Made by a program: the position numbers and the translations under genes. Source: Deltaproteobacteria bacterium (GTDB lineage Bacteria; Desulfobacterota; Dissulfuribacteria; Dissulfuribacterales; QOAL01). From it: a DNA stretch of 33,677 nucleotides. The stretch spans positions 1-33,677 of the forward strand of contig JALVJO010000107.1 of NCBI GenBank assembly GCA_027028245.1. Reading direction: 5' to 3'. The number at the start of each line of letters is the position of its first letter. The stretch's first letter is position 1. The notes under the pieces were generated by a model. That model saw nothing but the letters and a program-made list of their open reading frames with translations, searched no databases and was not told the DNA's origin. Shown here piece after piece: positions 18,622 through 22,907 of this stretch.

Positions 18622-19683
18622 ATGGCTATTTCCAAGGAACAGGTACTCCAAGCCCTGAAAAAGGTGAAAGATCCTGAACTACATAAGAGCCTGGTAGATC
18701 TGGGCATGATACAGGACATAGAGATAGCAGGAGACGCCGTCAGGGTAACTGTCGCTCTGACCATGGCTGGATGTCCCCTGAAAGACCAGATAAAACGCGA
18801 TGTCAAGGAAGCCGTGGGGGGCATTCCAGGGATAAAGGAGGTGAGGGTGGTTTTGACCACCATGACTTCAGAGCAGAGGGCGAAGATATTCGGCCGCGAA
18901 CCCTCTGAGATGGAAGGCATGAAGAAGGTGAAGCATGTGGTGGCAGTGGCCAGCGGCAAGGGAGGGGTGGGCAAAAGCACTGTTTCCGTAAACCTGGCCC
19001 TGGCCCTTTCAAAAAAAGGATTCAACGTTGGAATTCTCGATGCAGACATGCACGGACCTGATATCCCCATAATGCTTGGAATCAAGGAGCGACCGGTAGG
19101 GAAGGGGGGCATGCTCATGCCCCTTGAAAAATACGGTATCAAGATGATGTCAACAGGTACTCTGGCCGGGGAGGGTACCCCCATTGTGTGGAGGGGGCCC
19201 CTGGTAAACAAGGCCATCAAGGAGTTTCTCGGGCACGTGGACTGGGGCAGCCTGGATTTTCTGATTGTTGATCTGCCGCCTGGAACAGGGGATGCACCCT
19301 TGACATTGGCCCAGGCCATCCCCCTGGCCGGTGTAATAATTGTTACCACGCCTCAGAAGGTAGCCCTTTCCGACGTAAGACGTTCCATAGCATTGTTCAA
19401 CAGTCATGATATACCAGTACTTGGAATAGTAGAGAACATGTCCTTTTTCAGAATTCCCGGAGGTGATGAAGTGGTTGACATATTCGGATCCGGAGGCGGG
19501 GATAAGATTGCAAAGGCCTTCAAGCTTCCTGTATTGGCAAAGGTCCCCATTGACCCTGACATCAGGAAGGGCGGAGATGAAGGACGGCCCGTGGTACTGG
19601 ATGAAAAAAGCGAAGTCACAAAGGTCTTTTTGGACATGGCTGAACGAGTAGCTGAACTTGCGGATCAAAAAAACAATGAGTAA
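18622..19683 (+). CDS. mrp: Mrp/ApbC-type P-loop ATPase (Fe-S carrier family) without CxxC
   Basis: Mrp/ApbC/NBP35 proteins carry or assemble Fe-S clusters. The 353-aa protein has an N-terminal MIP18-type domain (about 1-85), then the ATPase with the deviant Walker A SGKGGVGKSTVSVNLA at about 112-127, DADMHGPDIPIML, and VDLPPGTGDAPLTL. In most family members a CxxC after the VENMS motif bridges a cluster between subunits; here VENMSFFRIPGGDEVVDIFG has no cysteine. Cys-less variants are known in some lineages, so it may act without a bridging cluster. GGGAG at 18608-18612 supports the ATG. A kinase gene follows after 8 bp. Confidence 0.9.
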   Translation: MAISKEQVLQALKKVKDPELHKSLVDLGMIQDIEIAGDAVRVTVALTMAGCPLKDQIKRDVKEAVGGIPGIKEVRVVLTTMTSEQRAKIFGREPSEMEGMKKVKHVVAVASGKGGVGKSTVSVNLALALSKKGFNVGILDADMHGPDIPIMLGIKERPVGKGGMLMPLEKYGIKMMSTGTLAGEGTPIVWRGPLVNKAIKEFLGHVDWGSLDFLIVDLPPGTGDAPLTLAQAIPLAGVIIVTTPQKVALSDVRRSIALFNSHDIPVLGIVENMSFFRIPGGDEVVDIFGSGGGDKIAKAFKLPVLAKVPIDPDIRKGGDEGRPVVLDEKSEVTKVFLDMAERVAELADQKNNE

Positions 19684-19691
19684 CCATAGAT

Positions 19692-20825
19692 ATGCTGTCT
19701 AATATCCCAAAAAATCAGGATAAATTACTGAACGTTGATTCTGTAAGAAAGGACGAGCTTTTTGATCTGATAGTAACGAACTTTCCTGTGGGACTTATCA
19801 TCCTGGATAGAGATGAAAAGATATTGGAATTTAACCCGGCAGCAGAAGAAATTACAGGCTTCAAAAAACAAGAGATATACGGCAAAAGTTGTCATGCCGT
19901 GCTCATTGGAATTCCCTGTCACCTTTCCGAGCTGAAAGAATCGGCATCGGCTGATGAAATTCTTGTGCATACAGAGGGCACCATAAGGCACAAGGACGGC
20001 CACGAGATTCCAGTGCGCTACACTGCCTCTCCCTTGGTCAAGGACAATAAACTCAAGGGCGCAATTGCCATATTCCGGGATGTAACCAAGGAAAAACAAC
20101 TGGAACAGCACAGGCGTGTACTTATTTCCATGTTCGCCCATGACCTGAAGGGCCCCCTTGCCGTTGCAGGAGGGTTTCTCATGAGACTCAGACAGGGCAA
20201 GGCAGGCCCCTTGAACAAAAAACAGCTCCAATACGTGGATACCGTGCTGAAGGAGGTGGGAAGGGTTGAAAAGTACATTCGTTCTTTCCTGGATATTGTG
20301 CGAATGGAAGCAGGGCAGATCACCCTTTCCAGGGAATTCTGCGACTTAAGCCGCCTGTTTTCAGATCTGCTGGACTCCATAAAACTTAAGGCCGGTCAAA
20401 AAAATATAAAAATAGAGGTGGAAATACCTGAAGATATATCCCCTGCATATGTGGACAAGACCCAGTTTTCAAGGGTTATCCAGAACCTGTTGGATAATGC
20501 CATAAAATATTCACCTGAAAATTCCGTGGTCAGGATCAAGTGCACGGAAAGTGATAAAAATATACTGATTGCCGTAGAAGACAGCGGCCCAGGCATTGAG
20601 GAAGAAGACCTGCCTTATATCTTTGATCCATTCTACAGGGCCAACTATTCAGGAGACGTGGAGGGCTGCGGAATAGGACTGGCCATTGTCAAAACCATCG
20701 TGGAAGCACACGGTGGCAAGGTTTGGGTCAGGAATAAGCGGCCTCCTGAACGGGGAGCCATTTTCTCATTCTCCATTCCAAAGTTCCAGGAAAGCCGCAA
20801 ACAACCAAACATTTTGAAGGCCTGA
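19692..20825 (+). CDS. Soluble PAS-domain sensor histidine kinase
   Basis: A two-component sensor of 377 aa with no membrane segment, so it probably senses a cytoplasmic signal. A PAS domain covers about 22-135 (FPVGLIILDRDEKILEFNPAAEEITG) and holds cysteines at 67 and 76 in a GKSCHAVLIGIPCHL stretch. The HisKA H-box MFAHDLKGPL carries phosphoacceptor His150. The HATPase domain has the N-box NLLDNAIKYS (Asn265, Asn269), DSGPG at 297-301, FDPFYR and GCGIGLAIVK at 325-334. No response regulator is adjacent; the next gene is a hybrid with an H-box and could be a partner. It begins 8 bp after mrp, possibly cotranscribed. Confidence 0.92.
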   Translation: MLSNIPKNQDKLLNVDSVRKDELFDLIVTNFPVGLIILDRDEKILEFNPAAEEITGFKKQEIYGKSCHAVLIGIPCHLSELKESASADEILVHTEGTIRHKDGHEIPVRYTASPLVKDNKLKGAIAIFRDVTKEKQLEQHRRVLISMFAHDLKGPLAVAGGFLMRLRQGKAGPLNKKQLQYVDTVLKEVGRVEKYIRSFLDIVRMEAGQITLSREFCDLSRLFSDLLDSIKLKAGQKNIKIEVEIPEDISPAYVDKTQFSRVIQNLLDNAIKYSPENSVVRIKCTESDKNILIAVEDSGPGIEEEDLPYIFDPFYRANYSGDVEGCGIGLAIVKTIVEAHGGKVWVRNKRPPERGAIFSFSIPKFQESRKQPNILKA

Positions 20826-20894: not shown

Positions 20895-21968
20895 ATGCCT
20901 AAAATAAAAGAAGACGCCGGGAACGGGCTGGTCCTGTATCCAGACAGAAACGCATTTTTATCTGATGCCGAAAAGGAATTACAACGAGTCAAGAGATATG
21001 GCGGCAGGGTATCTTTTCTGATCATAGAAACAGATAGTAATGCCGATATCACCGAAAGTTACGAAAAACTTTTATATAATGATATCAAAAAAATATTAAG
21101 GGCCTGCGACAGACTGTATTGGTCTGGAGCCGGTATTTTTTATGCAATCCTTCCGGATACACCGGAAGGTGGAGGCGAATTCGCTGCATTGCGGCTGAAA
21201 AAAGAAATATTTGATGCCTCCAGGCAAAAAGGCATGAGTACAACCCTGCATGTGGGACTCTTCAGCGCAGGAGCCGAGGGAATCCCAGATGCCGAAGAAT
21301 TGATGGCCGCCCTCCAAAGGGACCTCCGGCGAGACCGCAGAAGCCAGGTCTTTTTCCAGGCTGAAGAGGAGCCAGTTCCAGTCACAAAGAAAAGACTTCT
21401 CGTCCTTCCTCCCGAGCTTAAAAAGACTGAAATCGTACAAAAGACCCTTGATTCTGTCTGTACCATGATCACAACCGGCAAAAAAACAGGCAGCGTCTCC
21501 ATTCCAAAAGAGATTGAAAGATGTGTGATAATTCATAAAGGAAAGGGCGCGGCGGACCATATACAAGAGAAGATACGGAAACATCAAAGGTTAAAAAGTA
21601 TATTTAATATAATGCTCGGGACTGCGGAAGACCCTGCCGCTTTCGATCTTGTAATTCCTGAAGAATATGATCCCAAATTCCTATGTTATGCTGTATTAAA
21701 GGCATTTTCCGGAGAAGACCCCGAAAAAGGCGTTTCAGCCAGGTATAAAAGGAAATACGAAGATGCGCTTTCTGCCATAAGTGCTGCCACGCATCAGCTT
21801 AACCAGCCGCTTCAGATTATTTTGGGGAAAATGGAACTTTTGCTTCTGGATTTGGACAGCGGTCACATGGAACCTGGTGAAATAAAAAATACCCTGGCAG
21901 AGATCAGAACACACATCCTGCAATCTGCAGATATAAACCAGAAAATTAACCGTCTGACCAAGATTTAG
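20895..21968 (+). CDS. Degenerate GGDEF domain fused to a histidine-kinase H-box without ATPase domain
   Basis: Not a recognised named protein. In the 357 residues, about 10-155 read like a GGDEF domain: YPDRNAFLSDAEKELQRVKRYGGRVSFLII at the start and SGAGIFYAILPDT at 77-89 in place of the catalytic GGDEF-x-ILLPDT, so cyclase activity is unlikely. Residues about 165-275 (KRLLVLPPELKKTEIV to FDLVIPEEYDPKFLCYAVLKAF) recall a receiver-like alpha/beta fold. Residues 287-357 form a DHp-type helix pair with the H-box ATHQLNQPLQIILG (His300) resembling DctB/NtrB kinases, but the protein ends there with no N, G1 or G2 box. It may be a phosphotransfer or dimerisation partner for the upstream kinase. 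AGGGG at 20885-20889 sets the start. Confidence 0.75.
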   Translation: MPKIKEDAGNGLVLYPDRNAFLSDAEKELQRVKRYGGRVSFLIIETDSNADITESYEKLLYNDIKKILRACDRLYWSGAGIFYAILPDTPEGGGEFAALRLKKEIFDASRQKGMSTTLHVGLFSAGAEGIPDAEELMAALQRDLRRDRRSQVFFQAEEEPVPVTKKRLLVLPPELKKTEIVQKTLDSVCTMITTGKKTGSVSIPKEIERCVIIHKGKGAADHIQEKIRKHQRLKSIFNIMLGTAEDPAAFDLVIPEEYDPKFLCYAVLKAFSGEDPEKGVSARYKRKYEDALSAISAATHQLNQPLQIILGKMELLLLDLDSGHMEPGEIKNTLAEIRTHILQSADINQKINRLTKI

Positions 21969-22110
21969 ATTCGGATTCGGACAACTAGCTGATTTTATAA
22001 AAGTTTAACTTATTTTACATAATGTATCTTATGCGACATTAACAAAATACAAATGGATGACCGATATTATTCGGCCTTTCTCTTTTTTGGGAAAAATGGC
22101 ATAAAAAAAG

Positions 22111-22137
22111 AAAAAGGGGTGATATTCACCCCTTTTT
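22111..22137. terminator. Bidirectional intrinsic terminator between the GGDEF/H-box gene and flgM
   Basis: A 12-bp perfect stem, AAAAAGGGGTGA at 22111-22122 pairing with TCACCCCTTTTT at 22126-22137, encloses a 3-base TAT loop. Read on plus it ends in a T-run; read on minus it is followed by another long T-run. It lies between convergent genes and should stop transcription from both sides. Confidence 0.88.
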
Positions 22138-22166
22138 CCTGGGGAGAGGAGGAGGAGAAGAAGAAA

Positions 22167-22484: not shown

Positions 22485-22907
22485 TCATTCTCCATTGTTG
22501 GTTTCACATGAATATAAGTTTTCCACCATTTTTTTCAAATCGTTGATGGAAAGTTCCTTGATGGTTTCAGCGCTGCCTTCCTTATCGCTGACGACCCTGA
22601 ATCTGAAATCAGGAGTATTTTCCCGATCCGCAAAAAGTTCTATGGGCTCGGTCAATTTTTTACCTATCTTCTCAAACAAATTCTCGTTTATTAAACCAGT
22701 ATCGGTTTCTTGTTCCTTGGCCCGGGATACTATATCGTGGGTTATCTGGTCCATCACCTGCCTGCGTTTTGCCTCTGTGGATATGGATATAATATCCGAG
22801 GCATGCCGGGATAGCCCGGATGATTTGAGGTTCAGCAGATTTTTTCTGCCAATCCTCTGGCCGTAAGCCTTTATGACATGCTGTATGTGAAAACTGGTCA
22901 CATTCAT
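22485..22907 (-). CDS. Small FlgM-associated protein of unknown function
   Basis: The 140-aa protein, charged and helical, ends three bases before flgM. Its N terminus, MNVTSFHIQHVIKAYGQRIGRKN, is followed by SDIISISTEAKRRQVMDQITHDIVSRA. I believe it belongs to a family of uncharacterised proteins found next to flgM in deltaproteobacteria (the Desulfovibrio DVU0524 type), but this is from memory and was not checked. A role as a FlgM partner or flagellar chaperone (FlgN-like position) is inferred only from linkage. There is no signal peptide. The ATG has a weak AAAGG upstream. The 300 bp ahead of it contains a foldback repeat and the hupB terminator. Confidence 0.75.
   Translation of the reverse strand: MNVTSFHIQHVIKAYGQRIGRKNLLNLKSSGLSRHASDIISISTEAKRRQVMDQITHDIVSRAKEQETDTGLINENLFEKIGKKLTEPIELFADRENTPDFRFRVVSDKEGSAETIKELSINDLKKMVENLYSCETNNGE

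Follow-up and report, generated by a model that had tools for sequence, protein, structure and literature searches.

The window, a stretch of 33,677 nucleotides from a Deltaproteobacteria bacterium, encodes a 357-amino acid protein in which a degenerate GGDEF domain, a degenerate receiver and a DHp hairpin follow one another without an ATPase domain. Across its family the ATPase domain is absent and the cyclase site is lost, and the I-site and the phosphoacceptor His are retained in full. The protein is probably a c-di-GMP receptor that binds the nucleotide through its I-site. Because the histidine arm has been kept and the dead domain holds a c-di-GMP pocket, it probably links c-di-GMP to phosphate signalling. 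We see about an even chance that it is a non-enzymatic histidine kinase-like protein whose DHp dimer, under the control of c-di-GMP, docks receivers made elsewhere or exchanges phosphate with them.

Domain layout and conservation of the family

The features are listed in Table 1. The initial annotation described a dead GGDEF site (SGAGIFYA, residues 77–84) and a DHp with His300 but no ATPase domain, and the open reading frame, Pfam and the end of the protein 57 residues past His300 all agree with that description. It overlooked the degenerate receiver between these two parts and the intact I-site. Pfam gave a weak HisKA match in the window copy (17.2 bits against a cut-off of 26.9) and matched neither GGDEF nor HATPase there; in one relative (L083) GGDEF scored above the cut-off (42.1 bits). 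A profile of 25 relatives searched against the PDB found the GGDEF structure 6zxm_A (E 4.1e-9) and the FrzS receiver (E 3.3e-7). The structure model of the protein has a mean pLDDT of 76.9 and about 90 in the first domain; its packing of the domains is not trusted because the pTM is 0.43. The predicted N-terminal domain aligned with PleD bound to c-di-GMP (2wb4_B) over 143 positions (residues 3–152; Z 18.0, rmsd 2.4). The protein is not a histidine kinase, since it lacks the ATPase domain and thereby the N and G boxes, nor a diguanylate cyclase, since GAGIF stands where the GG(D/E)EF site would be, nor a response regulator, since the phosphorylation-site position of its receiver is a His.

Table 1. 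Features of the 357-amino acid gene and its surroundings, in window coordinates
Feature	Position	Strand	Evidence
ORF for degenerate GGDEF, degenerate receiver and DHp (357 aa), without ATPase domain	20895..21968	+	ORF list, Pfam, alignment, structure model, profile search
Degenerate GGDEF domain, residues 15–152	20937..21350	+	pLDDT ~90; fold match to PleD + c-di-GMP; profile match to 6zxm_A
I-site motif R69-A-C-D72 (RxxD)	21099..21110	+	R and D in 32/32 family N-terminal domains
Former GGDEF motif, now GAGIF, residues 78–82	21126..21140	+	Ordinary residue at 78–81 in 0–3/32 members
R100, third I-site residue (arginine), +22 from motif start	21192..21194	+	32/32 members, 27/37 ordinary GGDEF domains; same offset as SgmT R794
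Degenerate receiver-like domain, residues ~166–273	21390..21713	+	Profile matches to FrzS and PhoP receivers
DHp helical hairpin, residues 280–356, protein end	21732..21962	+	Model helices 280–322 and 327–356; weak HisKA; Foldseek match to LvrB
His300 of H-box HQLNQPLQ	21792..21794	+	H in 25/25 members
Upstream soluble PAS histidine kinase	19692..20825	+	PAS, HisKA, HATPase_c (Pfam); 18/29 loci
Mrp/NUBPL-type P-loop NTPase, constant upstream neighbour	18622..19683	+	Pfam; locus comparison
Terminator-like stem-loop between the 357-aa gene and convergent flgM	22108..22140	.	Weak: 5 such sites against 5.4 expected in shuffles

Matches at E <= 0.001 were found in 35 of 60 related genomes; several of these 35 are GGDEF-only or DHp-only matches, and the family counts use aligned sets instead. 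The full-length alignment holds 25 members, the window copy and 24 others, and family members are about 21–44% identical to the window protein. Named records with relatives are metagenome-assembled Deltaproteobacteria or Thermodesulfobacteriota, one labelled Thermodesulfatator and one SeepSRB2. Identity and invariance were read from an alignment of 25 rows, 24 of them common to the full-length set and one more divergent. Invariant over those rows are, among others, R69, D72, E91, R100 and K102 in the N-terminal part, and H300, Q304, P305, L306, Q307, I347, N348, K350, I351 and R353 in the C-terminal part.

This conservation bears on the reading of the gene as a decaying pseudogene of a kinase–cyclase hybrid. 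Three enzymatic parts are dead, and among 32 copies there are three, L057, L058 and L062, that are split or too short; some family copies are interrupted by contig ends. Against decay stand 25 full-length open copies across an order, with invariant residues and one common end point. The initial annotation had named relatives with a full ATPase domain as the sign of a truncated pseudogene; instead, every one of the 25 full-length members ends 55–63 residues past the invariant His. Truncation is thereby ruled out, the pseudogene as a general reading is already refuted by the conserved family, and we give it hardly any remaining weight.

The I-site of the dead GGDEF domain

We set the N-terminal domains of 32 family members against 37 ordinary GGDEF domains from related genomes, and a residue present in at least 70% of the latter defined a conserved column. 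Among the 44 such columns, only R69, D72 and R100 are kept in 32/32 family domains; the next best, L86, G121 and L144, are kept in 29/32. The ordinary residue survives in 0–3 of the 32 domains at motif positions 78–81 and in 2–9 of them in the substrate and metal region (positions 45, 47, 49, 50 and 53). Were three fully kept columns drawn randomly from the 44, the chance of obtaining exactly R69, D72 and R100 would be 1/13244. These residues are found in 35, 36 and 27 of the 37 ordinary domains, and because they are common in active cyclases too, their retention may be partly structural; the argument for an I-site rests on three residues surviving while nearly all other conserved columns have been lost.

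R69, D72 and R100 lie at −9, −6 and +22 from the start of the motif (residue 78). The same offsets are found in SgmT of Myxococcus xanthus, whose dead A-site starts at G772 and whose tested residues were R763, D766 and R794 (PMC3509222). According to that paper, c-di-GMP binding by SgmT depends on the I-site, the reported role of its GGDEF domain is I-site controlled clustering, and deletion of the domain left phenotype and gene expression no different, which counts against the reading proposed here. SgmT resembles the window family in coupling a GGDEF domain with a degenerate A-site and an intact I-site to a histidine-kinase DHp; it differs, as described there, in being a complete hybrid kinase that also has GAF, ATPase and receiver domains and in carrying the GGDEF domain at its C-terminus. 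PopA of Caulobacter, as cited in PMC3509222, is likewise a c-di-GMP receptor with a degenerate A-site and an intact I-site. In the window family the A-site is degenerate, and the RxxD and the spacing to the second arginine are present in 32/32 domains. PopA is not known to carry a DHp, unlike the window family. The genome encodes six recognisable GGDEF domains, the 357-amino acid protein not being among them, and seven PilZ domains, so c-di-GMP is probably present in the cell. Ligand sensing through the GGDEF remnant is the best-supported part of the earlier reading, and c-di-GMP is the likely, predicted ligand given the I-site kept throughout.

The upstream kinase and the gene neighbourhood

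The initial annotation noted a soluble PAS kinase directly upstream and no response regulator nearby. Pfam confirms the PAS, HisKA and HATPase_c domains of the former, and none of the 61 Response_reg matches of the genome falls on this contig. The kinase gene and the 357-amino acid gene share a strand and are 69 bases apart. It had also been suggested that the 357-amino acid protein takes phosphate from this kinase on His300 or inhibits it through mixed dimers, and that conservation of the linkage would be informative. We examined 29 loci, the window and 28 others, that have mrp upstream of the gene in the same orientation. The mrp gene is the constant upstream neighbour; between mrp and the gene there is a PAS kinase in 18/29 loci, a methyltransferase in 10/29 (three of them with the kinase too) and neither in 4/29. 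The kinase is thus missing from 11/29 loci in which both mrp and the gene are visible. No close copy of it was found elsewhere in six kinase-less f2/g6 genomes (G019, G029, G039, G041, G044 and G045), where the best kinase match has 30–34% identity or nothing matches at E <= 1e-30; of the 11 genomes searched, G042 carries a copy away from the locus, a 41% match that lies on a different contig. In G002, of the same genus, mrp and the PAS kinase are present with no copy of the 357-amino acid gene beside them. The H-boxes of the two DHp domains also differ (HDLKGP in the PAS kinase vs HQLNQP). Since the kinase is often absent, or present without the gene, it is a possible partner in this genome and not a general one. 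Gene order and the genome-wide kinase searches weaken it as an obligate partner, and despite adjacency and the 18 linked loci we regard phosphate donation or mixed dimers as improbable. A SAM methyltransferase (Methyltransf_11) lies between mrp and the gene in L041, L042, L046–L052, L057 and L133 and is absent from the window.

Downstream, flgM is convergent in 19/28 loci; in others the contig ends. A flagellar role through this neighbour is unsupported as a rule. No flagellin match was found in G019, G039, G041 and G044, which carry the gene and are each at least 90% complete, and the flgM neighbour occurs in G021, G035 and G036 in the absence of the 357-amino acid gene. A short FlgM-like ORF still lies beside the gene in L048, L049 and L051 (G039, G044 and G041, respectively), genomes without a flagellin match; L050 (G019) ends before the FlgM position. 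Beside flgM, the window also encodes a 140-amino acid protein (22485–22907, minus strand) that is conserved in the order and has no Pfam match at E <= 1e-5.

The DHp hairpin, its relatives and its possible role

Whole-model fold searches were filled by the GGDEF domain, and residues 160–357 were modelled alone. With this part, Foldseek returned AmiR and LvrB (PDB 8vc9, E 1.3e-4). A VIA comparison, which mainly concerned the receiver-like part, gave Z up to 9.6 for unrelated TIR domains and 8.9 for the DrrB receiver; among the 50 matches listed, no histidine-kinase DHp stands out. LvrB of Leptospira, a REC-controlled histidine kinase, shares the REC–DHp arrangement. It has an ATPase domain, unlike the window family.

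The position after the phosphoacceptor His is usually acidic. Here it is Gln in 22/25 members and Lys in 3/25, and N303, Q304, P305, L306 and Q307 are kept in 24–25 of 25. We take the H-box HQLNQPL to be compatible with DctB/NtrB-like kinases, which it may resemble. The planctomycete proteins L100 and L102 combine HQLNQPLQ with complete ATPase domains (judged by eye), so Gln after His is compatible with kinase use generally. The phosphorylation-site Asp of the receiver remains in 8/25 members. Because Gln or Lys replaces the acid in 25/25 members and the protein's own receiver site is gone, the phosphate chemistry could have been lost too. We rate phosphotransfer through His300 slightly below an even chance.

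The histidine arm has a possible origin outside the family. In G305, which belongs to another family, Mrp and a methyltransferase are followed by a 262-amino acid REC–DHp protein with an intact receiver and HELNQPLQIILGKIELLL (H-box HELNQPLQ). It matches the family model at 4.5e-40, the next best outside the order being 1.5e-23, and an intact syntenic REC–DHp was present in one genome among the 41 searched around G305. This syntenic protein suggests descent of the family from a REC–DHp protein whose receiver site was lost and to which the GGDEF front was added, on the evidence of one genome. Nine REC–DHp loci were compared (L133–L140 and L144), of which seven have the His. A single-receiver gene directly follows REC–DHp in five of the nine, suggesting from gene order a relay from kinase to REC–DHp to receiver; these pairs are L134 8521–9599, L135 2894–3957, L136 8186–9290, L138 8513–9654 and L144 6902–7973. 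In L137 (6879–7553) and L140 (8042–8716), both ATPase-less REC–DHp proteins, an Asp replaces the phosphoacceptor His (LSDKINTP), so this His can be lost when unneeded.

Such ATPase-less DHp proteins recur widely in Desulfobacterota. Eighteen of them have in common a C-terminal motif, YxxKxYxGxxxIIDI, with the second Tyr invariant and the Asp nearly so, which may be a docking motif; this tail is absent from the window family. A profile of the 18 tails matched 159/198 genomes at E <= 1e-12, a count that is not the size of the class because the matches include complete kinases. Among its best 30 loci, eight of which are rows of the profile itself, 28 end shortly after the His without an ATPase domain; the exceptions are a full kinase (L231) and an interrupted frame (L230). 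A search for intact receivers by a strict regular expression (3/27) proved too narrow and was set aside. The loci of the class are L133–L144, L205–L234, L032 and L033, and the last two belong to the window's own genome, as a contig-edge piece (L032) and a 333-amino acid protein with a receiver (L033).

By its sequence, the 357-amino acid protein is a non-enzymatic histidine kinase-like protein in the sense of PMC5847659 (HisKA, no HATPase): the C-terminal HisKA-like hairpin carries the His in 25/25 members, though with a sub-threshold Pfam score, and HATPase is lacking. The archaeal proteins so named share the C-terminal hairpin, the conserved His and the absence of HATPase; they carry PAS, GAF and other sensors, whereas the bacterial window family has a degenerate GGDEF domain and a dead receiver. 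It is proposed, and unproven, that they act as phosphoacceptors, in phosphotransfer or as phosphatases, and P2CS labels such proteins 'possible incomplete histidine kinase' (PMC5847659). ChpT and Spo0B, as presented in PMC3433190 and PMC9981736, are DHp dimers that lack kinase activity and shuttle phosphate through a His, properties that are predicted here. ChpT has a degenerate ATPase-like C-terminal domain; the window protein ends at the DHp with no such domain after it and has ligand and receiver-like domains in front. By analogy, the protein could work like a c-di-GMP receptor of the SgmT/PopA type fused to a DHp, and could serve as a shuttle like Spo0B or ChpT.

In the mechanism that we propose, the DHp hairpins would dimerise into a four-helix bundle presenting His300 to a receiver encoded elsewhere, and the dead receiver would act as spacer or lever. 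Binding of c-di-GMP would alter whether the bundle accepts, hands on or removes phosphate, or alternatively where in the cell the protein is positioned. A more specific version would make the protein a c-di-GMP-gated histidine phosphotransferase without a catalytic domain, one branch of the Desulfobacterota class of ATPase-less DHp proteins, and that class, often REC–DHp followed by a single-receiver gene, would represent fused Spo0F–Spo0B-like relay parts; we consider this joint reading possible and on balance doubtful. The DHp dimer might instead bind a receiver, or be its phosphatase, and titrate it from its kinase under c-di-GMP control. The missing ATPase domain, the missing acid after the His and the dead receiver would fit such an antagonist, and a phosphatase role toward response regulators has been proposed for HisKA proteins without HATPase (PMC5847659); a pure docking surface, however, would not need the invariant His, yet H300 is found in 25/25 members, and we think this reading unlikely. 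That the hairpin is a dimerisation handle only, with c-di-GMP setting the position of the protein as reported for SgmT and PopA, draws on the clustering described for the SgmT GGDEF domain (PMC3509222) and on the DHp domains with Asp for His in L137 and L140; it sits poorly with the conservation of His300 and the surrounding N-Q-P-L-Q motif and appears quite improbable.

In the open-access literature, with the terms used, we found no published description of a GGDEF–receiver–DHp protein without an ATPase domain. The puzzle of ATPase-less HisKA proteins is known from archaea; to these the window family contributes bacterial members that have a predicted input, c-di-GMP, and an invariant His, which opens the role of these proteins to direct biochemical test. 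Should the proposed function of the family hold, the point at which c-di-GMP acts on a phosphorelay would lie downstream of any kinase.
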